A stretch of DNA of 64,000 nt, from NCBI GenBank assembly GCA_944324465.1, contig CALUWI010000009.1, forward strand, positions 1 to 64,000, read 5' to 3'. Shown piece after piece: positions 494 through 34,882 of the stretch. Made by a program: the position numbers and the translations under genes. The stretch is from an uncultured Mucispirillum sp. Lineage in GTDB: Bacteria > Chrysiogenota > Deferribacteres > Deferribacterales > Mucispirillaceae. The notes under the pieces are model-generated. The model made no database searches. It was not told the origin of the DNA and worked only from the letters and a program-made list of their open reading frames with translations. Position 1 is the stretch's first letter, and each line of letters begins with the position of its first letter.

Positions 494-1402
494 TTAATTT
501 TTATCGCATAAATCACTTACTTTAAGTATCGGTAAATCTAAATTTTTCTTTAATATTTCTAATGAATAAGCATAAGTATATGCCAATGACTGCATTCTAT
601 TTATTACTGGGCTCCTACCACGAGGACCGTCTAGATCTAAATATAAAATATTTACAAGTTTTTCTTTTACATCTGGTGTTAGTTCATACATTCCCTGCTG
701 GCTGAATTTATAGACAAAATAATCAACTATTGGTCTAAATGGTTCCATTAAATCATCTGCTAAACGCATAGAATTATATTTATTTTTATGAAATATTCCT
801 ATTGCTGGGTGAAGACCTGCACCCATTATAGACCTGGCAATACCAGAGCGTAAAATAGTATAACCATAATTTAGTAAAGTATTAATACCTTCCCCATTTT
901 TATCTCGTATAAAATCATCACCAAATAATTTATTCCAATACACTTTTGCAGCTTGTGCCTCAATATTTTCTCTATCCCCTATGATTACTTTTTTTATAAG
1001 TAATTTTAATACCCTGTCATCTTTTTCTAAACTGTTTAAGCATACTGACTGATTATAAATTTTTATTTGTATAATATCCTGCCATATTTTTTCATAAAAA
1101 CTTTTTCTCGTATTTATTTGGTTATCTATTTTGGCAGACATTAAAGAATGGGTTTCTACTGGCCAAAGAAAAGCAGCTGGAGAGTGATTTGTGCCGCATA
1201 TAATAAATGGTATATTTAACTCTGCTAATTTCACAAGCAGGCTGCTGCTGTATGTAATGCTGTATGAATTACTTATTATACCACAAATATCATATAATGG
1301 TATTTCATAATCTTTACCATCTTTTATACTGACTTTTAAAAAGCCTCTATGCAGGCTTAAATAAGCCTGCATATCAGTGATTTCTATTATTCGCTGGTTC
1401 AC
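494..1402 (-). CDS. cas1: CRISPR-associated integrase Cas1 (type II)
   Basis: Cas1 is the metal-dependent integrase that inserts new spacers at the leader-proximal repeat. The 302-aa length is normal for type II. An N-terminal beta domain is followed by the helical catalytic domain. Putative metal ligands are Glu148 (in RENIEAQAA), His205 (in IGIFHKNKYN) and Glu220 (in DDLMEPFRP), with Asp227 nearby. The start overlaps the cas9 stop by 4 nt (ATGA), so translation is probably coupled. Catalytic residues look intact, suggesting the adaptation module is functional. Confidence 0.96.
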   Translation of the reverse strand: MNQRIIEITDMQAYLSLHRGFLKVSIKDGKDYEIPLYDICGIISNSYSITYSSSLLVKLAELNIPFIICGTNHSPAAFLWPVETHSLMSAKIDNQINTRKSFYEKIWQDIIQIKIYNQSVCLNSLEKDDRVLKLLIKKVIIGDRENIEAQAAKVYWNKLFGDDFIRDKNGEGINTLLNYGYTILRSGIARSIMGAGLHPAIGIFHKNKYNSMRLADDLMEPFRPIVDYFVYKFSQQGMYELTPDVKEKLVNILYLDLDGPRGRSPVINRMQSLAYTYAYSLEILKKNLDLPILKVSDLCDKN

Positions 1403-4400
1403 TTTCTATTTTTCCAGAAATTAATATCTGCAGTTTTCTTTTTAGTAACAATACCAGTTACGCTTATATTAAACTGTTCTGCTTTATATTTATTAAAAAG
1501 AGTATTAAATACTATAAATCTTTGACTTTGTTCATCTGTCCCTTGACCATTTATACTGACTAAACCAAGTTCTTTTAATTCTCCAGATTTTTTTTGTCTT
1601 ATTTGCTGTACAATATAAAATATTCTATTTCTTCCTTTTTCTTTATCTATAAACCCTATTACATCACCTTTAAATAACCGCATAAGTAATTTGCCATTAG
1701 GATATTTATTCATCCATTCAGGCTTAAAGTTTTTTTGAGCAGCATCAAATAACTGTATAACTTCTGATTTTCTTACACCATCTACTTCATATACCTCTAC
1801 ACAAATATTATTGCCACCAGCAAATGCTTTATACTCATTACCTGATTTATCTTTTATTTTAATTACAGGGTTTTCTGATTTTAATACTCTTATACCTTTT
1901 ATAGATTTTTCATCTACTATTTTATTAAATAATTCTTTATCACTACATGCAATTTCCTTTAATTCATTATCTCTTATCATTTCAAAATGTTTTTTTTCTT
2001 TGAATTTATCTAATGTCCATCTTGTTACAACATTATATTTATCATTATCTTCAACGATACCATAAGCAGTATCTTCATGTAATTTACCAGATATGCTTCT
2101 ATCTGCCTTATGAGAAGTTTTGATATTATTAATAGAAAGCTGCAGACTTTTTCTATAATTTGGAAAAGGTTCTGGCATTTTTTCAAGTAATTTATTTCTA
2201 TATGATGATAAATTTCTATTATCTAAATCTTCCTGCAATGATGCTGCATAAGATATTTTTTGCAGTAAAGAGCGGCTTGTTATGGCTACCACAAAAGCAT
2301 CTACTGCATGATGTCTGTGGTCGCTTCTATTTTTACTATCATCTTCAGAAATTAATGTATTTAATCCTAAATAATTACGAATAAGTGCTGTAAGCTGACC
2401 TGGAATAGTCCAAAGAGAACTGTATTTATCTTCTGCATATAAAGACTGTAAATAGCTAAGTGCCAGTTTAGATAAATACTGAGTATCTGCCAACTGCCTT
2501 GCAATAAAATCTTTACCATCTTTATTGTAAATATCCATAGCATCTTTTGTAAATCTTTTAAATTTACTATTATTATTTAAAAGTTTTGCTCTCGCTAATA
2601 TGTCATCATAATTATAGCCATCTTTGCTATCCTTAAATGCTTCATAAGGAGTTTTATTGCCTTTATAATAGTTAGCTTTTTTCATAGATAAAGTTTTATT
2701 ATTCATACTGTCATCTAGTGTTTTAGAATATGGTATAATATGCTCAATCTGCACATCATCACTAAATAATTTTGCTATGCTTATTTGCTCACCTGTATAT
2801 ATGCATTTCCTTTCCAATACATCTTTTGAAAGTTCCTGCCATAATTTAACTTTATCCCTGTTTAATTTATTTTTTACAATTTGGGTATGGTGTGTTTCTG
2901 AATATTCTTGAATAATTTTATCTACTTCTTCATTAAGTTTTTTATTTTCTGCTATTTTTTTCTTAATTAAATCTTTTGCTTTTCTGCTGTTTTTTAAATC
3001 TCTGGCTAATTCTATAACAATCTGCTCTGGTTTACCATACAGCTTAATTAATTCATTAACCAGCTTTCTTAACTGATTTAATGCTGCATGGACTGTTGGG
3101 TTTGCTATTTTACCATATATTTCTTCATCATTTTTAGGGTTTTCTATCTGTGGGTCTATTACACTATTTGGAAGAACTTTACCATAATATTCCAAAAATT
3201 CAGATGCTGCGGGCACATTTTCCTTTCCAAAGCCTGCTTTTTCTCTAGCATAATGTAAATCTAAATTATCTTTATCCATTATACTGTTCAGCTTCTCAAC
3301 TGCCGTTTTTCCATACCTTATATATCCGCTGTCAAGTTTATATACAGCTTTATTTAATAAGCCATTTATCTGACTTTCATTTAAGTTATATTTTTCAGCA
3401 TAAAGCCTGCTTAATTCATTATTATCTTTATCTGAAAATAATTCTTCTATTATTTCATACTGCACTTCTGGTGATAAATCATACCAGCTTTCACCGATAA
3501 TATCTTTACTAGACATTATAACATTTGTTTTATTACCTTGCAGCTTTCCATCTGTAGTTTCATGGGAAAACATTCCATATTTACCATTTTCATAATATTT
3601 CTTTAAAAGTTTCCTTATATTTTCATAAGATATTTCTTTTTTTACTTTTAATTCCCTTTTAAGAATTTCTTTTTCATCATTGTTTAATGGTCTAAATTCT
3701 AATATATTATTATCAAATACTCGTAAATCCTGCACTTTCTGTAACAAAATAAAAGATTGTGCAAGCACATGAGCTTTTCTTAGTTTGGTTTCTTCTGGTA
3801 CAAGGCTGCATTTACCCACTTTCTGCGGTTTTAATTGTCTTTGATAAAAGATTATGTTAAATATTTCATTAAGAATATCATCAGTTAATTCTTTATGATA
3901 TTTTTTCTGCTCATTCATTATGATATTATATTCTTCTTCTATTATAGACCTGTCTAAATATATTTCATATCCTTCTTTTCCATCAATTTTACCAAGGCGG
4001 GCTCTAACAGATTGACCATTCTGCAAAAGAAAATATAAATACTCACCAGCTGTTTTTTTATCAGTTTCCTGCATTTTATTTTTTAATCTTTCTATTGCAG
4101 GTTTTATTTTGCCGCTGCTTTCCTCTTTATCAACTTTTCTATTACTTTTAAACCCTCTGCGTTTTGAAAGATGCATTAAACTTCTTCCAAGCTCAAATAA
4201 TTCTATTTTTTCATTTGCTGCTCTGCTTCTTAATTCATAAGGGTTTAAAACAGCTAATGCTTTTCTTTCATTTTCATCTGACGGCAGTATGCTGTATTTT
4301 ATTAATGTATTTAATAAATGATTTCTTCGGGATATTTTTCTATCAAGATTTCTTCTAATACTGCGTGCATTTCTGCGTACTACAGCTAAAGGTTCTTTTG

Positions 4401-4551
4401 TTTTTTCATTTCTTCCATCATGAAATATCCTAACACCTGATTTAATAACTGCAGTTGGCTCATTATCACTATTTAACCTAAGCATACACCAGCCTATAGA
4501 ATTAGTACCTAAATCAAGACCTAAACGATATTTTAATGAATTTCCTGCCAT
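1399..4551 (-). CDS. cas9: CRISPR RNA-guided endonuclease Cas9 (type II-C)
   Basis: This is a compact 1050-aa Cas9, the dual-RNA-guided DNA nuclease. RuvC-I is at the N-terminus (GLDLGTNSIGW, Asp13), followed by an Arg-rich bridge helix at about 59-80. RuvC-II is PEQIVIELAR (Glu514). The HNH domain holds IEHIIPYS (His604) with the downstream NNKTL asparagine. RuvC-III is DHRHHAVDAF (His748, Asp751). All catalytic residues are therefore present and the gene is uninterrupted. Size, lack of csn2/cas4 and gene order indicate II-C. AAGGAG lies just upstream of ATG 4551. The tracrRNA diverges from its 5' side. The C-terminal PAM-interacting region is unlike any I can name, so PAM cannot be predicted here. 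Confidence 0.98.
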   Translation of the reverse strand: MAGNSLKYRLGLDLGTNSIGWCMLRLNSDNEPTAVIKSGVRIFHDGRNEKTKEPLAVVRRNARSIRRNLDRKISRRNHLLNTLIKYSILPSDENERKALAVLNPYELRSRAANEKIELFELGRSLMHLSKRRGFKSNRKVDKEESSGKIKPAIERLKNKMQETDKKTAGEYLYFLLQNGQSVRARLGKIDGKEGYEIYLDRSIIEEEYNIIMNEQKKYHKELTDDILNEIFNIIFYQRQLKPQKVGKCSLVPEETKLRKAHVLAQSFILLQKVQDLRVFDNNILEFRPLNNDEKEILKRELKVKKEISYENIRKLLKKYYENGKYGMFSHETTDGKLQGNKTNVIMSSKDIIGESWYDLSPEVQYEIIEELFSDKDNNELSRLYAEKYNLNESQINGLLNKAVYKLDSGYIRYGKTAVEKLNSIMDKDNLDLHYAREKAGFGKENVPAASEFLEYYGKVLPNSVIDPQIENPKNDEEIYGKIANPTVHAALNQLRKLVNELIKLYGKPEQIVIELARDLKNSRKAKDLIKKKIAENKKLNEEVDKIIQEYSETHHTQIVKNKLNRDKVKLWQELSKDVLERKCIYTGEQISIAKLFSDDVQIEHIIPYSKTLDDSMNNKTLSMKKANYYKGNKTPYEAFKDSKDGYNYDDILARAKLLNNNSKFKRFTKDAMDIYNKDGKDFIARQLADTQYLSKLALSYLQSLYAEDKYSSLWTIPGQLTALIRNYLGLNTLISEDDSKNRSDHRHHAVDAFVVAITSRSLLQKISYAASLQEDLDNRNLSSYRNKLLEKMPEPFPNYRKSLQLSINNIKTSHKADRSISGKLHEDTAYGIVEDNDKYNVVTRWTLDKFKEKKHFEMIRDNELKEIACSDKELFNKIVDEKSIKGIRVLKSENPVIKIKDKSGNEYKAFAGGNNICVEVYEVDGVRKSEVIQLFDAAQKNFKPEWMNKYPNGKLLMRLFKGDVIGFIDKEKGRNRIFYIVQQIRQKKSGELKELGLVSINGQGTDEQSQRFIVFNTLFNKYKAEQFNISVTGIVTKKKTADINFWKNRK

Positions 4552-9817: not shown

Positions 9818-12800
9818 TTATCCAAGAAAATCTAGTATAGAAATGCTCATCATTGAAGTTACTATACTCATAGCAGACTGATAAGCTGTTTTTGAAAGCT
9901 CTAAATCAGTAGTAAGTTTAATAACATCAGTAGCTGTAGCACCTAAATAACCTGCTTTTATTTCTTCGTTATTTGTAATAACTGTTTCCTGAAATTTAAT
10001 AACAGATTCTACTCTCTGGCCTCTTGTACCAATTAATGTACCAGCCTGTAATACCTGATTTACTGCTGCATCAAGAGTATCTATTTCATTTTCCACACCA
10101 CTGCCTACTGCTGCAGTAAAACTGTCTGTTGCACTAAGTGAGCCAGCATCAAAACCTAAATGTAAGCCGTCTGATACAAATACACTTTTATTTGCAGTAT
10201 CAAGTGTTACATTCTGCACTAAGCCGCCCTCTGCATTTGTTACTTTTACTGATACACTGTCCCCAGCTTTTGGAAAACCAAGTGTACCTGCATAATCACC
10301 TTCTACAACTATTCCACCGAATGTGCTGTTACTTGATTTTGCAAATGATATTTCACCTTTACTATTTACAACAGCATTTAAATTATCTGCAGAAATACCT
10401 TGTTTTACAAGCTGAGCATTAATATCATCTACCATTTCTTGAACTGATTTATACTCTTTTTTATCAAGAGTAACTTTTACTTCTTTCTGCTCATTAGTAT
10501 TTTCATCATAATATGTAATAGTTAATGTTCTTGCATCTTCTGAAAGCTCACTAAGGTCTGTTTTTGGAGTCTGTACACCTGAAACTGCTAATTCTGTTAT
10601 ATTACCTGTGCCACCATTATGAGTTAAACCTATGCTGAGTGGGTTATATGCACCAGATTCAACAGATACTTCTACAGGTAAATCTGTTCCAGATGCAACA
10701 AACTGAATAGAGCCGTCTGCTGCAATATTTGCTTTTATCCTGCTATTAGTCCCTGTGGCTGCATCAGCAAGCTCACTATTTATTTTTGCAAGTATATCTT
10801 CTTTACTGCTGAAAGCTGTTACCTGAAAGCTGTATGTGCCGTTACCATTATTTGTAACTTGTGTTGCACCTTCATTTACACTGATGCCAGCTTCTTTTAA
10901 TTTTTCATTAATAAAAGCATCTTTATCTGCTGCTGCCATAAAATCTTTTGATGAAATATTTACTTTATGACCGTTTATATCAAGAGCAAAAGTTTCACTT
11001 GCTGATACTGCAACATTAGCAATATTTTCAGTTACTACAGGGTCTACAGTGATTTCTTTAAAGCCTATACCTGCACCTGCCGGGTCAAGCGGGTCTGCCA
11101 CTTTAAATGTAAATGCAGCTGTAAATGTATCTGGAAGTTCTCCATTTGCAACAGTATCAAAACCCATTACAAAGCTTGCAAATGCTCTCTCTGCTGAGTT
11201 TGTTGCAGAGTTAGCAAAGTTTGCTATTTTTGTACCACTGCCAGACTGTATCTCTATAGCACCGTCTTTATTTGCAAACCTAATGCCTGCCTTTACAAAA
11301 TCAGGATTATTATTTAACTCTTTTAATATATATTCTTGAGCAGATTCTGCATTTGTTATTTCAGGGTTTGCTTTTGATAAATCTATTTTTACTTCTTTTC
11401 TTTCTACTTTACCTGTTTTATTATCAAAAATATCTACACTGAATGTTAACGGGATATTATTAGCAATTGCATTTTGATAAGCATTTTCATCATACTGCAC
11501 ATTACCAGATGTAGTTTTATATTCATTCTGCAGATAAAAATCAGTTTTTTGGTTAGCTGATAATATTTCATATTTCCAGTTATCATTAAAATTGCCTTGG
11601 AATACACCGTCTAAAAATGGTTTTGCAGTAGAATTTAAATCTGTTGCTTTCCATGCAGAAGGCTCACCAAAGCCATTTTTTGTAATATTATGTTCTAAAG
11701 CATGCATTAAGTTTTCTAATGCTCTGAATACATTTACATTTTTACCAGTTTCTTTAATATTTACATCACCAAAATTTAAACCAGGCTGTGCTTTTAAATC
11801 AAGCTGGAATGTAGTTGTAGACTCTCTTTTTGTTGGGTCTAACGGGTTAGGTATTTCCATATCATCTGGAGTAATAGTTACACCATTTGGAAGCTCAATA
11901 GGGCCACCTTTATAGTCATTTGTTACTTTATTATATATTGTATTGCCATTTTTATCCATAATAACTATAGATATATTTCTCTGGTCATTCTGACCTAATG
12001 TTGTTGTAACTGATACATTCCAAGTATCATCTTTTTTACCGCTGTATGCACCGCCTACTATTGTCATCTGGTCATTTGCATGGCTTATACCCTGATTAAG
12101 AGCATTTGTTCTAAATGTCAGCTTGCTGTCACCGCTTCTTAAATCTGCAATAGTAAGTTTACCGTCTACTATAGATACATCAACAGTCTGGCCGTATAAA
12201 TCTTCAAGAAATTTAACATAATCGCCAAGTGTTTTTTCTTCTGCATCATTTAAACGGCTTCTGTCAATTTTTGCTGTCTGCATATCAGAAGTTGGCGGAA
12301 TAGTAGTTCTGTCATAAGCTGTTGTAGTAAGAGTAGTATCTCTATCCATATTATAATTCTGCAGAGAGAATGTAATATCATAATTGCCAAGGTTTGCAGG
12401 GTCATTTGGATTTAAGTCAAGACTTACACCTACTTCAAAATCAAAACCTGCTTTTCTTAATGCTTCATCAAATAAAAATTCAAGCTCTTTTTTACTTGGA
12501 GTTGTAGTAGCAACACCTAAACTAAATGTTCCATTTGGATTATTATTAAAAGTGGTAATGACTGTTTCCCCGCCAAGACCAGCTTCTCTTAATTTTTCAT
12601 TTAAAAAGTTTGTTCTTTCTGCTGCTGGAATGTTCCTAAATTCTTCAGCACCAACTGTTATTTTCCTTCCGTTTACTTCAAACTCTACATCTTCTTGTCC
12701 AAACTTTAGATTTGGAATTGTAGAATTTGCTATTGTAGTTGCCGGCTTATTAATAACTACTTCTTTACCGTTTACAAAAAATGTGTAGCTTGTGCCATTT

Positions 12801-14416
12801 AAATCAAAGTTTTTATGAGTTGTTTCTACTGGGTTGATTGTATCAGTATGGAAATCATAACCTATTTCAAAAGTAGTATCTTTTCCTTCTGCTGCAACAG
12901 TTGCACCTTTAAAGCCTAATAAACTCTGGTCTGTACCTGTTACTGCTATGCGGACATTATCACCAGCTTTCTGGCTCATAAAATTAAGTCTGTCGCCATC
13001 TGCAGATATTTTTAATTCACTTGATAAGTCTACTTTATATTTATTTTTTCCTTCAGTAGTTGTTTCCCCTTGGAATTTGCCAGAATTAACCTGACTATTA
13101 ACTGTTGCCTCATATGTATCTATTGATGCATTTAAGCCAGATAAACTGCTTAATGAACCAATATATTCTGCATTTTTAAGTTCATTATTAATAGCATTTG
13201 CAAGTTCATCTGTAGAAGCATATGCTTTCTGCGGAACTACCACTTTATAAAGTTTATCCCCATAAGTAATAGTTAATGTTCTTTCTTTTTCAGTAGCTGA
13301 TGCTAAATCTAAACTTGGATTAGTATTTGATACAAGACTTGCTATACCCACTTTATTACCATTATGGTCTGTACCTGCTATCTCTATAGAATCACCAATA
13401 CTGATATTAGTATTATCTAAATTTGAAAATAAGCTGTTAATAGTTGCAGCCATACCATTTACTGTATTAAATGCTGAGCCCTGCAGTATTAAGCTGGATT
13501 GCGTAAATATATTACTTCCAGGCATATTTACTGCAATATCCTGACTGTAGCCTATCTGAGTATAAATATATCCATTATCGCCTTGATAAGTGATTTCTGA
13601 ACCTGATTTATAATCAAATTCCATAACAATAGATGTAGGATTTTCTAAATCATCAGGTAATTTAAATGATATACCTCTGCCTGTATTTATAACTTTACCC
13701 GGCTCATATTCAAAAGTCATAGAAACAGCCGATTTATTACCAGAACCACCTGCCTCATCTGAGCCGTTTGAGTCCATTATTACCACATTACCTTTTTCAT
13801 CATAAAGCTGTAATTTAGCAATACCAGTATTGTTATTTACTACTATTTTTGCAGTATATTTGCCAGATTTTAACTCTGTCATATCGCTGAATACATCTTT
13901 TACAATAGCATCACCAGATAAATTTTCACCATTTTCATTTTTGGTAACTACATTAGTAACAGAGTTTGTGCCGCCAGTAAAAGGTGGTTTTTCTGTCTGG
14001 AAACCGCCAAAAATATATCTGCCGTTATAACTGGCATTTGCTATATCCATAATTTGATTATATAAACTTAATACATCTTGAGCTAAAGCCTTTCTGCTTT
14101 CTTCATCATAAGAGTCTGACGCACCAGCAATTGCATAATCATCCCTTGCTTTTTTTAATGCTTCTAATAATTCCTGCAGTTCTGCATTAGTATTATTAAG
14201 CCAGTTAGATGCACTGTTGGCATTTTCACTAAACTGAGTAAGCTCATCAATCATGTTCTGAACATTATAAGCACCTACATACTTACTTGTATCTTCCCAC
14301 GGATTAAGCAGACTTTGCTGTGCATTTGCTTTTTTAACAGCTTCTGTATAGTTTGAAAGACTTGTTGAAAGCATATCTTTCATCTGCATACCGCGCATAT
14401 TAAATGTTACTCTCAT
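9818..14416 (-). CDS. flgL: Giant flagellar hook-associated protein 3 (FlgL / HAP3)
   Basis: FlgL joins the hook-FlgK junction to the flagellin filament. The ends are family-typical: residues 1 to about 165 (QSLLNPWEDTSKY, ANASYNGRYIFGGF) and the last 90 or so (LIGTRGQRVESV and the terminal helix). Between them are more than 1200 extra residues; the usual total is 300-500 aa and this is 1532. The insert contains repeated beta-rich units resembling flagellin hook IN motifs, for example GRKITVGAEEF near 587 and GHKVNISSKDF near 1147, and LTITYGDK near 375 and LTITYYDE near 1295. It is likely surface-exposed. The gene has its own sigma-54-type promoter and is followed by fliW and csrA. Confidence 0.93.
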   Translation of the reverse strand: MRVTFNMRGMQMKDMLSTSLSNYTEAVKKANAQQSLLNPWEDTSKYVGAYNVQNMIDELTQFSENANSASNWLNNTNAELQELLEALKKARDDYAIAGASDSYDEESRKALAQDVLSLYNQIMDIANASYNGRYIFGGFQTEKPPFTGGTNSVTNVVTKNENGENLSGDAIVKDVFSDMTELKSGKYTAKIVVNNNTGIAKLQLYDEKGNVVIMDSNGSDEAGGSGNKSAVSMTFEYEPGKVINTGRGISFKLPDDLENPTSIVMEFDYKSGSEITYQGDNGYIYTQIGYSQDIAVNMPGSNIFTQSSLILQGSAFNTVNGMAATINSLFSNLDNTNISIGDSIEIAGTDHNGNKVGIASLVSNTNPSLDLASATEKERTLTITYGDKLYKVVVPQKAYASTDELANAINNELKNAEYIGSLSSLSGLNASIDTYEATVNSQVNSGKFQGETTTEGKNKYKVDLSSELKISADGDRLNFMSQKAGDNVRIAVTGTDQSLLGFKGATVAAEGKDTTFEIGYDFHTDTINPVETTHKNFDLNGTSYTFFVNGKEVVINKPATTIANSTIPNLKFGQEDVEFEVNGRKITVGAEEFRNIPAAERTNFLNEKLREAGLGGETVITTFNNNPNGTFSLGVATTTPSKKELEFLFDEALRKAGFDFEVGVSLDLNPNDPANLGNYDITFSLQNYNMDRDTTLTTTAYDRTTIPPTSDMQTAKIDRSRLNDAEEKTLGDYVKFLEDLYGQTVDVSIVDGKLTIADLRSGDSKLTFRTNALNQGISHANDQMTIVGGAYSGKKDDTWNVSVTTTLGQNDQRNISIVIMDKNGNTIYNKVTNDYKGGPIELPNGVTITPDDMEIPNPLDPTKRESTTTFQLDLKAQPGLNFGDVNIKETGKNVNVFRALENLMHALEHNITKNGFGEPSAWKATDLNSTAKPFLDGVFQGNFNDNWKYEILSANQKTDFYLQNEYKTTSGNVQYDENAYQNAIANNIPLTFSVDIFDNKTGKVERKEVKIDLSKANPEITNAESAQEYILKELNNNPDFVKAGIRFANKDGAIEIQSGSGTKIANFANSATNSAERAFASFVMGFDTVANGELPDTFTAAFTFKVADPLDPAGAGIGFKEITVDPVVTENIANVAVSASETFALDINGHKVNISSKDFMAAADKDAFINEKLKEAGISVNEGATQVTNNGNGTYSFQVTAFSSKEDILAKINSELADAATGTNSRIKANIAADGSIQFVASGTDLPVEVSVESGAYNPLSIGLTHNGGTGNITELAVSGVQTPKTDLSELSEDARTLTITYYDENTNEQKEVKVTLDKKEYKSVQEMVDDINAQLVKQGISADNLNAVVNSKGEISFAKSSNSTFGGIVVEGDYAGTLGFPKAGDSVSVKVTNAEGGLVQNVTLDTANKSVFVSDGLHLGFDAGSLSATDSFTAAVGSGVENEIDTLDAAVNQVLQAGTLIGTRGQRVESVIKFQETVITNNEEIKAGYLGATATDVIKLTTDLELSKTAYQSAMSIVTSMMSISILDFLG

Positions 14417-25566: not shown

Positions 25567-26182
25567 TATTGGTATGACTGGCGGTATAGGCAGCGGAAAA
25601 AATCAAGTGGCAGATATGTTTAATCAGCTTGGTTTTTATACTATTGATTCTGATATTTCAAGCAGAAAAGTTATGGAAAAAGGACATCCTGCCTATGAAA
25701 AAATAGTTTCTTTTTTTGGCAAAGATATATTGGATGAAAATGGGAATATATTAAGAAAAAAACTTGGGGATATTGTTTTTAATGATAAAGAAAAATTAAA
25801 AACATTAGAAAATATAGTGCATCCTGCCATATATGAATATGAAAGAAAAGAACGCTCTAAAATATACGGCAGAGATGATAAAGCTGTAGTTATTACCCAT
25901 GCTGCACTGATTATAGAAAGCGGAAGTATTGATAAATATGATGCATTAATAGCTATATCATGCCCAGATGAACTGCAGGTAAAAAGAGTAATGCAGAGAG
26001 ATAATTTCAGCGAAGAAAAAGCAAGAAATATAGTATCCCACCAAATGCCAAATGAAGAACGGCTTAAATATGCTGATTTTATCATAGATAATTCATCAAC
26101 TCTTGATGATTTATATAAGGAAGTAAAAAGAGTGCATAACTTGATAACTCAGATAAACTATGGAGAAAAACATAATAAATAG
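25556..26182 (+). CDS. coaE: Dephospho-CoA kinase with altered P-loop
   Basis: A 208-aa dephospho-CoA kinase, the last step of coenzyme A synthesis. The P-loop is GGIGSGKNQ, where the family has GGIGSGKST: the Walker A Ser/Thr that coordinates Mg is Asn here. Other signatures fit well, including DSDISSRKV (family: DADxIaR), ENIVHPAIY, and QVKRVMQRD with SHQMPNEERLKYADFII. An ATG at 25559 is an equally good start. It ends the plus-strand operon. Confidence 0.92.
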   Translation: MMRNIGMTGGIGSGKNQVADMFNQLGFYTIDSDISSRKVMEKGHPAYEKIVSFFGKDILDENGNILRKKLGDIVFNDKEKLKTLENIVHPAIYEYERKERSKIYGRDDKAVVITHAALIIESGSIDKYDALIAISCPDELQVKRVMQRDNFSEEKARNIVSHQMPNEERLKYADFIIDNSSTLDDLYKEVKRVHNLITQINYGEKHNK

Positions 26183-26185
26183 TAT

Positions 26186-26237
26186 ATATTCAATAAAATT
26201 ATTTATGCATAAACAATATTATATATTTATTGAATAT
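26186..26237. terminator. 12-bp inverted repeat between coaE and the helicase operon
   Basis: ATATTCAATAAA (26186-26197) and TTTATTGAATAT (26226-26237) are perfectly complementary, with a 28-nt AT-rich loop. It is the only structure between the convergent coaE and helicase stop codons and may act as a weak bidirectional terminator. It also marks the left border of the AT-rich operon. Confidence 0.45.
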
Positions 26238-26253
26238 TATTCAATATCCTAAG

Positions 26254-29200
26254 TTACAATTTTTCTCGTATAAAATCATAGATATTTTGATTGTTGTCTA
26301 TACCAAACATATCTTGCAATTGAGCTATAAAACTATCACTCCATAGTGGATGGCATAAGATAATATTATTATAAATAAAAATATCATAACCATCATACGA
26401 TTTTTTTATCACTTCGTCCTGCTTAATATATCTATAAATAAAATCGTGCCAATAATCTGTATTGAAGCCTATTTTAACATCTTTATCTAACGCCAATTGA
26501 TGAATATCTAATCCTAATCGCCAATTTAAATGTTTATGCTCAAACTGATTTGTATAGCTTAATAGACAATCATAACAAGATGTATAACAAAGATGATTTT
26601 CATTTATATATACAGATTTTAGATATTCTGAAGGTAATTTTATATCTAATAATTTTAAAATCTCTGTTAAAACTTGACCATTATTTGCTGCTACATGTGT
26701 ACTAATTCCAGCACCATTCTCTAATCTATCTGCTACATATATCTCACTGATATTATCCTTAGTTGCTCTATACCCACAAAATAATTCATCTGGATCTATA
26801 TCTAAATTATATGCAATACCATTTTTTATCATTTCTGCCCAAGAATATAAAGCGACAACTGCATATTCATTTACTTTAATATCTAATGTAACAGTATCTA
26901 GTATATGGTGAATCCTAAAAAGTAAAATATCTGTATGTTTAGATGTAACAAGTACATTATTACTTAACTGTTTAGGTTTATCGTCAGTAAGTTCATATTT
27001 TGATGTAAAGTCAAATAAACGACCTTTATTATCATTAATCGCATAAATTTTGCCATTATCACCATTTTCTGAACGGAATAATATATTATAAATAGATGTA
27101 TCTTCTTCTGTAATTTGTGCTATTTTTGGGCTCAGTTTTATATAATGATTATTTACTTGTTTATCATAAACACCTACATAATCTTCTGGTTTATTATTTG
27201 TAATATATCCATTGGGTATGATTGCATTAAGAGTTTTATAAATTGATTGTTCAGCACCACATATAGGACAATTATCATGTTTTGTAAAAGAAAAATGACC
27301 ACAATTATAACAAAAACCGCATAATCTGCTTTGCTGCGGATATACTTTTTTTAATCCTTTTGTGCTTATCTGATAAGAGCCTAATCCTATTGACTTATAT
27401 ATTTTTTTATCTTTTAATATACTGCTTCCTGGAGCAAATGTTGAAAGAGCTAATATATGGTCTCTGTCAATAATATCTACTTTATTTCTATAATCAGCTA
27501 ATAAGTTGTTAACAACACTGTATGATACATTATGAGACTGTAGACAATTATCATATTTATTAGATAAATAAAGATTACGCACATTTGTAGGGAACCCAAA
27601 AAGTGGTAAAAGAGCTGCAACAGCAAGCCTTTCACTGAGAGAAGAAATGTGAGAAAAATCATTATTAGAAGCAATGCTTTCTATATCTGTTGGCAGTTGT
27701 TTGTATATATAATTTTTCAAAGTTTCTTGTTCTACACTATTATTTATAAGATTTATAATAATATCTTCAACTATGTCTTGATTATTATTTAACCAATTTT
27801 TAAGCATATCTGGCTGATATTTATAGACTGTACCAAAATTTCCATGAATTTGTGATACATCAGCCTTTTCTACACCAAAATCGGCAAAAGCATGCCTTAA
27901 TACTTCTTTAATTACAATGCGTTTTTCTATCCTATACATATCTAATTCAAGATATGGATTTGGTAATGGAGCTGAAATCATTCTATGTATTTGTTTAAAG
28001 TGAGTATTATCATGGCTAGAGTTACCTGCTACAGTTAATGCAAAAGAAACTGGTGTACCTCTCCTACCTACCCTACCAATCCTCTGTTGATAATTAAATC
28101 TTTTAGGTGGCATATTCCCCATTATAACAGCATTTAATGAGCCTATATCAACACCTGCTTCCATAGTAGTTGTAACACTTAAAACATCTATTGCTAGAAA
28201 TTTTTCATACAGGCTTTCTTCGTTATTAAATAAATTTTGAAAATATCTTTGTCTGATTAATGCATCTTTATAATCTGTTTGTGCAGATAATTCTTCACAA
28301 TGTAATCTCATAGGTTCAAAATTATTCATAATATGAGAATAATAACCATCAGTATAATAAAGTGCATCTGATAAAGAAACCTCTTCCAATTTATCAATAC
28401 TAAAACAATTTGTACATACTCCACAGCTTCCATGCAAATGAATGACATTACATCTGCTGCACTTATAAACTTTTGCATCATTTTCTAGTTTATATAAGCT
28501 AATATCATTACCTGTAATTAAATATTTATTTGTTTGAAAAAATGATAAAGCTTTTAATTTTTTTAAATAATCATTTATTTCGTCAGATTTAGGTGCTCTA
28601 TTTAATTGTTTTCTAAGAACTTCTTTAGTATAGTTTGTAATTTTCCTTGGAATACTATTATCATAAACTATATATTTTGTGCCTTTGATACGCTTCAATT
28701 CTCCGAAAATACGTATACAGGAATTTATATATTCTTCAGGTAATCCATAAGTATTACCAGTATATTTTGGCAGGGCAATACATAATGCTTCAAAAGAACG
28801 CCTTATTCCAGAAAATATAGATAGTAAAATTTCAAAATCTACACTTGAAAGAAATTTATTAATATCATGTATTAATGATGCAGACCCATTACTATTATTA
28901 TTAAAATCTATTTTATACCATGGCTCTCCATCTAATTTTTGTATAGATGGTTTTGGACCTGCAGGACAAATACCAACATCTTTTATAGTTGCTGCTATAA
29001 TCCTTACCAACTGATTAATAGGAATAGATAAACCTTTAAGCTTATTTTTAATATCTTCAGCTGTATAGTCAGATGTGCTTTTATAAAATTGTTCATAAAT
29101 ATTTGCAGTAAAATCTGATTTAATATTACTATCTACATATATCTCTATTAGTGATAATAAGGTTTCCACCTGTTTTTTCTCTGTAATTTTGCCATTAAAT

Positions 29201-31221
29201 AAATCATCTATCAACTTAAATATTTGTTCTTTCTCTGATAATGAGCTAATAAAACTTTTGTATATTATAGTTCGCATTAAATCTCTAAAATAAGTTAGCT
29301 CTACATTAGCAGATAAATGGGCAGCTCTTTGCCTAGAATCTGAAAAAACAATCAATTTAGAATTTTCTTCATCAAAATATTGTTTCAGTTGATTTTTCAT
29401 TGATGCAACCATTATTTGATTGATTTTATCTGCTCCAACACCATGAGTTCTTATAACTTTATATGAACCACTACTTTCAGATAGACATAATGGACATGTT
29501 TCTGGATAATTTTTTTCAATATTACCAACTGCACCTGATTTACTTTTATATATTATTCCATCATTGCCATTAGGTATAGATTTTATTTTTAAAGAATTAA
29601 AATCCTGAATTTTACATAATGACCAGTTTATGGAGTTTTGTTTTGCTATAATATCTTCTAAATCGTCTAATATATTTTTTTCTTTATCGAATGGCAATAA
29701 GGTAGCATAACTATCTATATTTTTATTAATGATTTCTTCAGATTCTAATTTACCATCTATCTCATAACCAGATAAAAATACACCACCACATTGCGAACAA
29801 ACTGATAATTCTAATATTTTAGCTCCACATTTGCAGCGATATTGATTAGTTGAATATAATTTCCCTATATTTCTTTTAGGATATTTATATTTTTCATCTA
29901 CTTCAGAACACTCTGGATTGCTGCATGCATATAATTTATGCATATTTTTAAAAATAAAATGACACTTAATTCTTATATCACTATCGTATGGTAGTTTATT
30001 TATTTTATTTTGGATATCATATGATAAATCATTATAGTATTTTGGGGTAACAAGAGCATCTATTATATCTTGATTTTTATTTTTACTTTTAGATAATGTA
30101 TCTTCATTTGTTATGATAGCAAATTTTTCTTTTATCTTATTTTGTGGAATATTAAAAAAATCTGCAATATATTTTTCAGTTGCTTGATTTTTTTCTAACG
30201 ATGCAGAAGCTGCTAAAAATCTCACCTTATCAGAATTGCCAGAAATACCTAACCTGTATAACAGTAGTCTTAATAAATAAGCCACTTCTGAACCTGCAGT
30301 GCCTTTGTATGAGTGTAACTCATCAATTACAATATGAAATACATTTCCATCCTGCTTCAGCCATTTTTTTGTATTTTCAAATATAAAATCATCTTTATGA
30401 TTCATAAGCATTACATTAAGCATAGAGTAGTTTGTTATTAAAATATCTGGATGATTATTTCTTATGTCTTCTCTATTCCAAATCTCGCTAGAACCTTTAT
30501 CTGTATTGACATAATAATATTTTAGTTCTTCTTTATTATAATCATTTGATTCAGATACTGATTTCCATTGATTTACTAATTCTTTACCAATAGCATCATT
30601 ATTTGAATTTGGTGTTCTTCCTGTATATCTTGCAAATGTAATCGCATTTATATTATATGTATTGTAAAAGTCTTTTAATTTATTATATTCCAGTGCTTTT
30701 CTAAGCCTGGACATTTGGTCTTCAACAAGTGCATTTAAAGGATATAATATTATTCCTTTCATCACATTATTAGTTGTATTCTTTTTTTGTAACAATATAT
30801 TATGTAATAATGGTAAAAGAAAACTTTCTGTTTTTCCTGAGCTCACTCCTGTTGTTATTAATAAGTGTTTGTTATTATTTACCACACTATCTAATGAGGT
30901 TACTTGATGTTTATATAAAGTATATTCATTATGATTTTTATCAGTTACAAGACCTGTATATCTGAAAAAATCTGCTGCTGTTTTAGATATTATATTATCT
31001 CTTTCTAGTTGGGAAATAGTTTGTCCTGCTTCATAATGTGGCATTAATTCTATAATAGGATTTAGCCAAATAGATGTATTATCATTACTACTTATATTAA
31101 ATAACTCTGCTCTTTCATCTTCTAAATGTTTACTATATAGGGGAACACCTGTTTTTAAATATTTTATATAAGTATTTTTTAATTCGTTCCATACCAATTG
31201 AATGTTAATTATTCTGTTCAT
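26254..31221 (-). CDS. Large DEAD/DEAH-box helicase with DUF1998-type C-terminus (defence-associated)
   Basis: A 1655-aa superfamily 2 helicase. The ATPase core has TTGVSSGKTES (Walker A, Lys130), LYPLNALVEDQ (motif Ia) and DELHSY (Walker B, Asp300-Glu301). The second RecA domain ends in QQRIGRVGRRG near 1050. Cysteine clusters suggesting zinc ribbons occur near 425-475 (CSNPEC, CKC, CSQC), 575 (CPLC), 925-945 (CSRC, CGVCTNC) and 1294-1320 (CGFCYNC, CPIC). The C-terminus carries the DUF1998 pattern with CYTSCYDCLLSY near 1540. Such proteins are found in DISARM, Druantia (DruE) and Dpd-type defence systems as well as in repair helicases like MrfA. The fused size resembles DruE, but the neighbours do not match Druantia genes I know. 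It overlaps the preceding gene by 17 nt. All core motifs are intact. Confidence 0.88.
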   Translation of the reverse strand: MNRIINIQLVWNELKNTYIKYLKTGVPLYSKHLEDERAELFNISSNDNTSIWLNPIIELMPHYEAGQTISQLERDNIISKTAADFFRYTGLVTDKNHNEYTLYKHQVTSLDSVVNNNKHLLITTGVSSGKTESFLLPLLHNILLQKKNTTNNVMKGIILYPLNALVEDQMSRLRKALEYNKLKDFYNTYNINAITFARYTGRTPNSNNDAIGKELVNQWKSVSESNDYNKEELKYYYVNTDKGSSEIWNREDIRNNHPDILITNYSMLNVMLMNHKDDFIFENTKKWLKQDGNVFHIVIDELHSYKGTAGSEVAYLLRLLLYRLGISGNSDKVRFLAASASLEKNQATEKYIADFFNIPQNKIKEKFAIITNEDTLSKSKNKNQDIIDALVTPKYYNDLSYDIQNKINKLPYDSDIRIKCHFIFKNMHKLYACSNPECSEVDEKYKYPKRNIGKLYSTNQYRCKCGAKILELSVCSQCGGVFLSGYEIDGKLESEEIINKNIDSYATLLPFDKEKNILDDLEDIIAKQNSINWSLCKIQDFNSLKIKSIPNGNDGIIYKSKSGAVGNIEKNYPETCPLCLSESSGSYKVIRTHGVGADKINQIMVASMKNQLKQYFDEENSKLIVFSDSRQRAAHLSANVELTYFRDLMRTIIYKSFISSLSEKEQIFKLIDDLFNGKITEKKQVETLLSLIEIYVDSNIKSDFTANIYEQFYKSTSDYTAEDIKNKLKGLSIPINQLVRIIAATIKDVGICPAGPKPSIQKLDGEPWYKIDFNNNSNGSASLIHDINKFLSSVDFEILLSIFSGIRRSFEALCIALPKYTGNTYGLPEEYINSCIRIFGELKRIKGTKYIVYDNSIPRKITNYTKEVLRKQLNRAPKSDEINDYLKKLKALSFFQTNKYLITGNDISLYKLENDAKVYKCSRCNVIHLHGSCGVCTNCFSIDKLEEVSLSDALYYTDGYYSHIMNNFEPMRLHCEELSAQTDYKDALIRQRYFQNLFNNEESLYEKFLAIDVLSVTTTMEAGVDIGSLNAVIMGNMPPKRFNYQQRIGRVGRRGTPVSFALTVAGNSSHDNTHFKQIHRMISAPLPNPYLELDMYRIEKRIVIKEVLRHAFADFGVEKADVSQIHGNFGTVYKYQPDMLKNWLNNNQDIVEDIIINLINNSVEQETLKNYIYKQLPTDIESIASNNDFSHISSLSERLAVAALLPLFGFPTNVRNLYLSNKYDNCLQSHNVSYSVVNNLLADYRNKVDIIDRDHILALSTFAPGSSILKDKKIYKSIGLGSYQISTKGLKKVYPQQSRLCGFCYNCGHFSFTKHDNCPICGAEQSIYKTLNAIIPNGYITNNKPEDYVGVYDKQVNNHYIKLSPKIAQITEEDTSIYNILFRSENGDNGKIYAINDNKGRLFDFTSKYELTDDKPKQLSNNVLVTSKHTDILLFRIHHILDTVTLDIKVNEYAVVALYSWAEMIKNGIAYNLDIDPDELFCGYRATKDNISEIYVADRLENGAGISTHVAANNGQVLTEILKLLDIKLPSEYLKSVYINENHLCYTSCYDCLLSYTNQFEHKHLNWRLGLDIHQLALDKDVKIGFNTDYWHDFIYRYIKQDEVIKKSYDGYDIFIYNNIILCHPLWSDSFIAQLQDMFGIDNNQNIYDFIREKL

Positions 31222-32068
31222 AAGTATTACCTACAAAAATACGCATAAGTTCACTATATATACTGTTATTAATATAATATCTACCTTCTAATATATTTGT
31301 AATATTTGCATTATTTGATAAAATAAGAGCTCTTGTTATAAGAACAGGCATAGGAAGTTTATGATAAGTTTCTAATTTATATTCCTCTTTATTATACATT
31401 GTAAACATTTCTTGTAATACAATCTTATTTGTTCTATAGATATAATAATATTTTGCCCATATTTCATCATCAGGAAGCATATTATAATTGGCTATTCTAT
31501 AATACTTATAGTCTTGATAATAATATCTTGCAGAGTATTGATTATACCGTAAAACTCCTTCATTTATAGTGTTATTATAATTATTCCATCTGCCTATGTT
31601 AAGAGTATTATCAGAATGATTATTCTTCTTTTTTTTACTATTTTTTTTTGGGATAATACTCCATTGTTCTTTAAAATCATATAAATTAACTTCGTGAGAC
31701 TTATTATTTAGATAGTTAGAAATATTAGGGATTGATTTTAATAATAGTAAACCATTTTGAATTTTATCTTTATCCACATTCAATATAATATCACTATCCA
31801 TATTTAACTTCTGAATACTTTCAGACGGTATTAATGTAATATAAGTTTTATCATTAAAGGGTATAATTTCAGCAGCTCCCATTGCTATTAATGGGTAAAT
31901 AATATTATAATAATAGTGAAGGTTATCTATTTTCTCTATTTTCAAATAATCTTGTAATATTTGCTTTGCTTTATATACTGCATGTGAGTATAATATTGGT
32001 ATTTGCTTATATAAAAGATAATTATAAAAAGTATTAATAGCCTTTATTTTTAATTCCATAATGAGCAT
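31205..32068 (-). CDS. Unknown 287-aa protein of the helicase operon
   Basis: I do not recognise this family. Residues 20-75 (HAVYKAKQILQDYL to YPLIAMGAAEIIPFNDKTYITLIP) look like a winged-helix-type domain. The middle has a Lys-rich linker (KKNSKKKKNNH) and many Tyr/Asn residues. The C-terminus has LPMPVLITRALILSNNANI followed by EGRYYIN. There is no signal peptide, membrane segment or nuclease motif. ATG 32068 follows the stop of the preceding gene with no gap; ATG 32059 is an alternative. The overlap with the helicase suggests a fixed stoichiometric partner, possibly a DNA-binding adaptor. Confidence 0.7.
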   Translation of the reverse strand: MLIMELKIKAINTFYNYLLYKQIPILYSHAVYKAKQILQDYLKIEKIDNLHYYYNIIYPLIAMGAAEIIPFNDKTYITLIPSESIQKLNMDSDIILNVDKDKIQNGLLLLKSIPNISNYLNNKSHEVNLYDFKEQWSIIPKKNSKKKKNNHSDNTLNIGRWNNYNNTINEGVLRYNQYSARYYYQDYKYYRIANYNMLPDDEIWAKYYYIYRTNKIVLQEMFTMYNKEEYKLETYHKLPMPVLITRALILSNNANITNILEGRYYINNSIYSELMRIFVGNTYEQNN

Positions 32069-33118
32069 TTAACCTATATTATTAACATTCTCAATTAACT
32101 GCGGGTTAATCGGAAGGCTGTATTCATATTTTTCATCATTATTAACAGGAACAAACATAATATATAAGTTAGTAGGCATATAAGCATACATATCCTCTTT
32201 TACCATAGGATTATATCTTCTATTACCTAAATATATATCTAATAAAATACCTGCATATGATTCTATAACAGATAAGTTAGAGTTGCGTATTATGAATAAA
32301 TAATCAGTATCTTTATTTTTATGAGCTAAATACCATAATTCTTCTAATCCACTATACCATAAATATTCAAACTTATTCCATGAGGGAGATGTATACTGAA
32401 TAATTGTTTTTTGAGTGTTATCTTTTGATTTTATTAAATCATCTAAACTTCCAATAAATATTTTCTTTTGTAAATTATATTCTGTCTGTTCTATACAATA
32501 AGCACTTCTATATTGAGCTGTTTCATCATTTTGATGTTCATTATAAGTTACTTTATTAATACTTTCATTAAATGATGATATCAATGAAGATATAGAATTA
32601 GTATACTCTTTTAACTTGTTTAAACCATATAACTCAGCACGCATATTTTTTATATCTGCTTCAAGAGCTGTTATTCTATTTTCAAGAGAAGCTATAAGAT
32701 TTACTTTTTCTTCATATTCCTGCTCTATTATAGATAGTTCATTTTTTTTATTATCATATTCATTAGTTAGTTCATCTTGCTGTTTTTGAAGATTGTTGTT
32801 ATTTTCTTCTAAGTCTTTATTGATTTTTTTAAATAGTTTAATACTTTTTTGTAACTCTTGAAATTGTTTGTGTATGTTTTCATATTCTCCTTCAATTCCT
32901 TTCACACCATACATATAATTATTATTTTCTTGTTTTAACAATAATTTCTGATTTTTTAACTCTATTTTAACATTATGATTTATTATCTTCGGTGATATAA
33001 TATTTCTATATAATGCAATATTCATATTACAACTACTAGGTGATAAACAAACATTTTTAAATTTATACAATACCATATCTATTAAATTTTCCATTTGATC
33101 AGTATCATTATTCGTCAT
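32069..33118 (-). CDS. Unknown coiled-coil protein of the helicase operon (349 aa)
   Basis: I do not recognise this family. Residues about 80-190 form a long coiled coil (repeated heptads in KKINKDLEENNNNLQKQQDEL and onward). The C-terminal third is globular: DYLFIIRNSNLSVIESYAG, LLDIYLGNRRYNP, MPTNLYIMFVPVNND and LPINPQLIENV. In order and spacing this faintly resembles the Walker B to sensor part of McrB/AAA-type modules, but no Walker A is visible and the Walker B acid is absent, so at most it is an inactive relative. It lies 2 nt after the first gene of the operon. Confidence 0.68.
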   Translation of the reverse strand: MTNNDTDQMENLIDMVLYKFKNVCLSPSSCNMNIALYRNIISPKIINHNVKIELKNQKLLLKQENNNYMYGVKGIEGEYENIHKQFQELQKSIKLFKKINKDLEENNNNLQKQQDELTNEYDNKKNELSIIEQEYEEKVNLIASLENRITALEADIKNMRAELYGLNKLKEYTNSISSLISSFNESINKVTYNEHQNDETAQYRSAYCIEQTEYNLQKKIFIGSLDDLIKSKDNTQKTIIQYTSPSWNKFEYLWYSGLEELWYLAHKNKDTDYLFIIRNSNLSVIESYAGILLDIYLGNRRYNPMVKEDMYAYMPTNLYIMFVPVNNDEKYEYSLPINPQLIENVNNIG

Positions 33119-33120
33119 TT

Positions 33121-34632
33121 TTACTCCCTCACATATTTCAAACCAAATTTTTCTAAAATGTATTGGTGAATTTTATTTTTTTCTTTTTTCTGTTGTTTAT
33201 CGATCTTTATATTTAAACCTTGTATTAACCAGTTTTCCTCTACTATGCATGGAAACTCATTAATGTCTACTTTCCAGCCAACATTGTTATATGTATCATA
33301 CTTATCCTGCATATCAAATGAAACTATTTCAAATTTAACTGTTTTATTAAGAATAGATAATGTATATATTCCTGGTTTTTGTTGAACAAAATAATCTTTT
33401 CTTATTGCCAGCTTATTATCATTAATTTCTATATTATTAAGGTAATTATTATCTTTATTGGAAAATTCTATTATAGGACCTGCCCCATAAAGCCATTTTC
33501 TATAACCTACACTTAGCCCGCCACTAAGTTTAAATTCATTAATCTCAAATAAATTATTGCCTAAAAGCTCAATATCATCTTTAGATAGTATATACATTGA
33601 TATATTTTTCTCTTTATCATATATTGTTGCCTGTTCTATAATATCAAATTCCTGTGGTGCTTTATCCCCAATATAACAAATTGCACAAGTATTGTTATAT
33701 AATTCAATTTCATCTATTTCTCTAAATTTACTATTAGTATCTAAGATAATCCAAGTATCATCATACTGCTTATCTTTTTCTAACAACCTATATGTTTGCT
33801 TTTGAAATACTTCTGTATGAGAGATTTCTTTATTATTTCTTATAAATACAATTTCATCATTATATGCAGTGATGTATAATGTAGATTTTGCATTATATAC
33901 TGTATTATTAGGCTTAGTAGGTGTTACTGGTGTTTTAGAAGTATTATCTTCTTTAAGAACATTTATAAAAGAATTGATATAATCATCAAACATTTTATCT
34001 TTAATATTTGTAATTTTATTAACTAATGATTGTGGCATATATGTAACATAATCAGTGTATGTATTACTGTTTAGCTTATCAATATTATTATGAACAAAGT
34101 TTGTAAGCATTTTCATATCATCATTATTTAAATATAACTGGGATTTAGCAAACCTTACTGCAAAATGCGGCATTGATAAAGTTTCTGTTCCTAAAAAATA
34201 TTTATAAGAATATCTATTAAGAAAATCTTTATAACAGGTTAGCCACAACAGCTTTGTATATTCTGGGAGTTTTTTTTCTAAATATTTTTGATAGTCATCA
34301 TCACCTTTTAAAAGCGTTGTTAGTGAGTGGTAATATCCTTTTCTATTTATTTTATAAGCTGCATAAATATGTATTGCGATAATCCATAAAAAACCAGGAT
34401 ATTTATATTTTATATAATCATTACAATAATATTTTATAACATTTTCATAATTTCTTGATAAGTAGTCAATCATAGTATCCCAAGATGATTGACCATATTT
34501 TTTAATATAAGAATTAATGAAATTAGTATCTATACATAATAGCACATAATCATTAGCATTTAATTTATCTGATGATAAAAATGTATCTATAACAAAATCA
34601 TTAAACTGGTTGATATATTCACATGTATTCAC
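33121..34632 (-). CDS. Unknown first protein of the helicase operon (503 aa)
   Basis: I do not recognise this family. Residues 1 to about 235 are helical and Tyr/Asn-rich. A Pro/Thr linker (TPVTPTKPNN) separates a beta-rich C-terminal part, in which LSGGLSVGYRKWLYGAGPII and PGIYTLSI suggest an immunoglobulin-like or sandwich domain. No catalytic motif is evident. The start is GTG, with AAGGA eight nt upstream; the nearby ATG is out of frame. It opens the four-gene operon behind a TATAAT-type promoter. No homology claim can be made without a profile search. Confidence 0.7.
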   Translation of the reverse strand: MNTCEYINQFNDFVIDTFLSSDKLNANDYVLLCIDTNFINSYIKKYGQSSWDTMIDYLSRNYENVIKYYCNDYIKYKYPGFLWIIAIHIYAAYKINRKGYYHSLTTLLKGDDDYQKYLEKKLPEYTKLLWLTCYKDFLNRYSYKYFLGTETLSMPHFAVRFAKSQLYLNNDDMKMLTNFVHNNIDKLNSNTYTDYVTYMPQSLVNKITNIKDKMFDDYINSFINVLKEDNTSKTPVTPTKPNNTVYNAKSTLYITAYNDEIVFIRNNKEISHTEVFQKQTYRLLEKDKQYDDTWIILDTNSKFREIDEIELYNNTCAICYIGDKAPQEFDIIEQATIYDKEKNISMYILSKDDIELLGNNLFEINEFKLSGGLSVGYRKWLYGAGPIIEFSNKDNNYLNNIEINDNKLAIRKDYFVQQKPGIYTLSILNKTVKFEIVSFDMQDKYDTYNNVGWKVDINEFPCIVEENWLIQGLNIKIDKQQKKEKNKIHQYILEKFGLKYVRE

Positions 34633-34663
34633 ACTAAAATTCCTTTTATATATGAATAAATAT

Positions 34664-34690
34664 ATTATACTAACTATATTTTTTATGCAA
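34664..34690 (-). promoter_or_regulatory. Candidate promoter of the helicase operon
   Basis: The minus strand has TTGCAT (34685-34690), a short 15-nt spacer and a perfect TATAAT (34664-34669), about 30 nt before the GTG start. The short spacer predicts weak or activator-dependent expression. The rest of the 250-nt gap to 34883 is AT-rich, with no gene I can support. Confidence 0.45.
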
Positions 34691-34882
34691 TATTTTGTTT
34701 ATATATTTTTTATAAATAATTTATTCAGATTTTAATAATCAATTTTTTAAGTTGACATATATTTTTATTAATAGAAGAGTATTATATAATTGATAAATAT
34801 TTGTATAAATATAATGATATTCTAAAACATAGAACTTATATGGAACATTACATAACTGCACGCATCTATTTATTATATTTTT

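Follow-up and report, generated by a model that had tools for sequence, protein, structure and literature searches.

A predicted Druantia variant, druF-X-druL-druE, in apparently acquired DNA of an uncultured Mucispirillum sp.

Results

The operon and its insertion site

The window (the whole 64,000-nt stretch of contig CALUWI010000009.1 that was analysed) carries four minus-strand genes in the order druF-X-druL-druE (F-X-L-E), spaced by 2 nt and 0 nt and then overlapping by 17 nt. The strand, sizes, gaps and overlap given in an earlier sequence-only reading of this DNA were all reproduced from the ORF coordinates. The features are as follows.

33121..34632, minus strand: p503 (503 aa), predicted DruF homologue with a helical N-terminal part and a beta-rich C-terminal part
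32069..33118, minus strand: p349 (X, 349 aa), predicted coiled coil with a C-terminal P-loop-less AAA+ McrB-like domain, DruG-like
31205..32068, minus strand: p287 (287 aa), predicted DruL homologue, from a profile match and a shared operon position
26254..31221, minus strand: DruE (1655 aa), predicted YprA-type SF2 helicase with an MZB/DUF1998 domain
26176..34873, no strand: inserted segment between coaE and tautomerase-ftsK, with similarity to congeners breaking at both ends

The AT bias described earlier was also found, with a GC content of 25.8% for 26254-34632 against 32.8% in the remaining window (1-kb bins of 22–29% within the operon and mostly 30–38% elsewhere). The proposal of a single promoter for all four genes found no support, promoter-like sites being no more frequent than in shuffled sequences (77 observed, 84.5 in shuffles).

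Comparison with congeners placed the operon in an 8.7-kb insertion, flank similarity ending at approximately 26176 and resuming at approximately 34873. The coaE-ftsK interval is near-empty in four congeners (about 0.1–1.2 kb), whereas a fifth (G003) has a restriction-modification system there, made up of a C5 methylase and an HpaII-type endonuclease, alongside further genes. The same interval of G003 (L140, 1953-11394) also contains genes resembling a DMSO-reductase operon by sequence. A search of 50 other genomes from the phylum yielded no DruE, p503 had no match in 59 relatives, the insert contained no recombinase and the window no tRNA. Helicase matches in phylum relatives were considered as DruE and rejected, being short matches to ordinary helicases. 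The site between coaE and the ftsK run, with no visible recombinase, is as the sequence-only reading described it, the insert ends now being mapped, and its suggestion of acquired DNA agrees with the clean insertion, the low GC content and the absence of DruE from the 50 genomes; judged from these comparisons, the operon is horizontally acquired.

Two other loci in the window were recorded. Genes for Cas9 (HNH_4, RuvC_III and Cas9 alpha lobe) and Cas1 at 494-4551, also in low-GC DNA, constitute a type II CRISPR-Cas locus. A gene at 9818-14416, beside FlgK, encodes a protein that carries the flagellin N-terminal domain and that, at 1532 aa, is unusually long for this family.

The helicase and its partner genes

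The 1655-aa protein scored 1045 bits with the PADLOC DruE4 model and 1032 bits with DruE2, whereas other families reached only 78 bits (DpdJ) and 48 bits (DrmA), which, with no partner genes of these systems found in the operon, separates the locus from DISARM, Dpd and ARMADA. These systems are marked, respectively, by DrmA with DrmB, by DpdJ with dpd genes, and by a methylase with an SNF2 helicase. In the window's DruE, SF2 motifs I, II, III and VI are intact, the Walker A lysine being K130, and several Cys pairs and the MZB/DUF1998 domain (PF09369) are present, in keeping with the SF2 helicase with zinc clusters and a DUF1998-type tail that had been claimed. By profile, the protein is assigned to DruE of Druantia. 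Among plasmid records, 155 matched the window DruE; in 9 of these 155 a single place covered at least 80%, all with less than 60% identity.

Searched alone, p503, p349 and p287 gave no meaningful match in PADLOC or the other family libraries used. A genome scan with DruE as a single-protein query likewise gave no match, and loci surfaced only with a DruE alignment as query, which returned 80 DruE loci (one genome per species, 84,980 species). In the window's nearest relatives among these loci, DruE is preceded by genes for proteins of approximately 520, 600 and 285 aa. For p503, phmmer matched the counterpart in L071 (4e-14), a profile built without the window sequence gave 99 bits (6e-29), and up to 10 of 18 members of its relatives matched a single PADLOC DruF model, from which p503 is assigned as a DruF homologue; its fold model was weak (pLDDT 60) and a fold search with it returned nothing. 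Iteration of the DruL family gathered 86 sequences, among which are C-terminal parts of fused DruF proteins, and two members matched PADLOC DruL directly. Against the leave-out profile p287 scored 43 bits (E 8e-12) with a high composition bias, and it occupies the operon position of the DruL homologues of relatives; we assign it to DruL, allowing for the strong bias in the score. Plasmid searches with p503 and with p287 returned no match, the F, X and L profiles, run against PDB sequences, found coiled-coil or chance matches only, and sequence comparison revealed no evident conserved catalytic residues in F, X or L.

Protein X (p349) matched its counterpart in L033 (phmmer, 3e-12) and scored 50 bits against a leave-out profile. 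In it a long coiled coil is joined to a C-terminal domain that was modelled with good local confidence. Fold searches returned mostly AAA+ proteins, McrB prominent among them (probability 0.89–0.95), at E values of approximately 0.01 that are not significant alone. The P-loop is absent from every member; Asn281 and Asn317 are invariant. Three type II loci have a DruG to which the profile of the C-terminal domain aligned at 39–77%; 1 of 240 random control ORFs reached 39%, and that ORF occupies the place of X in a Poribacteria locus. The PADLOC DruG match of p349 covers the coiled coil only. Matches of p349 to LmuB, JetC and SMC families reflected coiled-coil similarity, and these identities were rejected. 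X is thus predicted, mostly from fold matches at E values near 0.01, to be a coiled-coil protein whose C-terminal domain is of the AAA+ McrB-like kind but has no P-loop, and to be related to type II DruG. The sequence-only reading, which had regarded the helicase as the sole recognisable member, is in this respect superseded by the profile matches to DruF and DruL and by the DruG-like X.

Conservation of the gene set and the DruE tree

The F-X-L partners are kept in order with DruE in 18 loci on sufficiently long contigs, in addition to partial loci, so that the conserved four-gene unit proposed from the window, which would have been contradicted had the partners never been conserved with the helicase, is seen across neighbourhoods. 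The order was found in Bacteroidota, one member of the Bacillota and Gastranaerophilales, and in Poribacteria with a divergent X. Four Poribacteria loci (L108, L046, L041, L045) carry a divergent X-like gene with a similar motif between DruF and DruL (hhalign 10–60%).

In the DruE tree (59 rows, a quick method, uneven composition) the window DruE falls in a fully supported clade of 20 rows, comprising 19 F-X-L-E loci and one Treponema locus. It sits on a long branch (1.36), and which row is its nearest sister is uncertain (support 82). X is present in every locus of this clade with enough upstream sequence except the Treponema locus (L101). The latter (1-2700) encodes an 899-aa protein, part of which is DruL-like (94.5%); neither F nor X was detected there. 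Type II groups elsewhere together with two F-L loci, and types I and III lie outside the window clade. The Gastranaerophilales F-X-L-E loci and Poribacteria form another group, and because this group stands apart from the window clade, X is either ancestral or has moved.

Nearly identical F-X-L-E sets occur in a Sphingobacterium (L081) and in a contig from a viral collection (L112), the latter with genes for an S24 peptidase and an rve integrase core nearby. Two phage-collection records (L030 and L031) carry DruE-like helicases; in the first, a Ruminococcus phage, a large uncharacterised gene precedes the helicase gene.

Relation to known Druantia types

Since profiles recover DruE, DruF, DruL and a DruG-like protein, the operon belongs to Druantia. 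PADLOC type IV is defined by DruE, DruF and DruL (PMC8565338), and at the level of family profiles the operon has in common with it DruE and homologues of DruF and DruL, the latter as a separate gene; it differs in that X sits between F and L, where type IV has no further core gene, in the different clade of its DruE, and in that the PADLOC models miss the window's F, X and L. With type II (DruM, DruF, DruG, DruE) it shares DruE, a homologue of DruF and probably, in X, a coiled-coil counterpart of DruG. DruM and DruG are both required by the PADLOC definition of type II, whereas the operon has no DruM and, in library searches, no methylase family; DruL is a separate gene here, whereas in type II an L-like part forms the C-terminal portion of DruF, and the type II DruE belongs to another clade.

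Relative to type I (DruA-E), no DruA (DUF4338) match was found in the operon, but DruD resembles DruL, the two aligning at 84.5% in one type I locus (random ORF maximum 3.5%), and in another type I locus the fused 955-aa partner aligned at 84.8% with the C-terminal part of DruF (random ORF maximum 8.4%). DruB and DruC of type I locus L121 gave no match to F or X. The operon contains no match to DruH of type III, which is itself unlinked to F, X and L. If the McrB-like assignment of X is right, the pairing of a DruE helicase with a coiled-coil protein whose McrB-like domain lacks a P-loop would be shared with the type IV CoCoNuT of Bell et al. (Druantia I/II with inactivated CnuB; PMC12458937). 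These authors point to diversity in types I and II that had gone unappreciated, but the F-X-L-E set is absent from the portions of their main text considered here and is not separated out in the PADLOC types.

The earlier statement that no known defence set was matched consequently holds for the exact gene set, F-X-L-E being unlisted, and fails for the family, which is Druantia; the library searches agreed with it that the operon has no methylase, PLD nuclease, DUF4338 or dpd gene. By these comparisons the operon is an acquired variant of Druantia that falls between PADLOC types II and IV.

Discussion

One alternative, that the locus is plain PADLOC type IV with X as a dispensable accessory gene, draws on the homologues of DruF, DruL and DruE all being present and on 34 of 96 related loci that have F-L-E with no X detected. 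We consider it unlikely, although it is the most credible of the alternatives, as within the window clade X is found between F and L in all loci with sufficient upstream sequence bar the Treponema one, has counterparts in type II (DruG) and in Poribacteria, and accompanies a DruE clade that is separate from the F-L-E clades. The operon could instead be decaying and non-functional in the window's strain: its X lacks the N-terminal domain of approximately 200 aa present in most orthologues, its DruE branch is long and the segment is very AT-rich. This seems improbable given four open frames, tight spacing and intact helicase motifs, and X of Gastranaerophilales and some Poribacteria lacks or replaces the same domain. 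Lastly, YprA-family helicases include repair enzymes, according to Bell et al. (PMC12458937), and a DNA-repair operon of the YprA/MrfA kind might be imagined; the DruE4 score far above other families, the absence of DruE from the 50 other phylum genomes searched, the inserted segment and partners from Druantia families make a repair function very improbable.

A defence role for F-X-L-E is, by contrast with repair, strongly indicated, as the sequence-only reading had supposed, by the Druantia homologies and by the setting of relatives, several of which adjoin Mokosh, Lamassu, TOTE, CBASS or type I methylase genes in a sample that was hand-picked and had no control. Type III DruE has been reported to act on replication intermediates containing ssDNA (PMC13192584), and DruE of types I and II has been reported to have an inactivated C-terminal nuclease (PMC12458937); from these reports and the defence neighbours we propose a helicase-driven block of replication. 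The enzymatic core of the operon, DruE, can be read from its sequence, and for sensing, assembly and outcome we infer the following. DruE, as the sole evident enzyme, would engage phage replication DNA with single-stranded parts and then translocate along or unwind it, so that replication would be blocked or the DNA exposed to host nucleases, while F, L and the coiled-coil pseudo-AAA X may form a sensing, loading and regulatory assembly deciding when DruE acts. The DruE step is carried over by analogy from type III, a remote branch in which the nuclease is active. Overall, we regard it as probable that the locus is a horizontally acquired Druantia anti-phage system of the variant druF-X(druG-like)-druL-druE, in which DruE acts on replicating phage DNA under the control of an F, X and L assembly.

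The alignments suggest, but do not prove, a common plan F/B-G-L/D-E across Druantia types. A further proposal, to which we give somewhat less than an even chance, treats F-X-L-E as a Druantia type of its own: DruE, with no evident nuclease, would be under the control of a catalytically dead McrB-like coiled-coil protein and not of a nuclease or methylase, and types I, II and IV would have arisen from one F/B-G-L/D-E core by fusion, by loss, or by the addition of DruA and DruM.

For the genus, the coaE-ftsK interval appears to be a place of exchange for differing cargo, defence genes included. A standard defence library (PADLOC 2.0.0) can miss three of the four genes of a likely defence operon, and X is a conserved additional component left out of the E-F-L definition of type IV. 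The F-X-L-E arrangement may bring DruF, DruG and DruL together with type I DruD under one common plan that can be tested, and thereby helps to show the relations among Druantia types.
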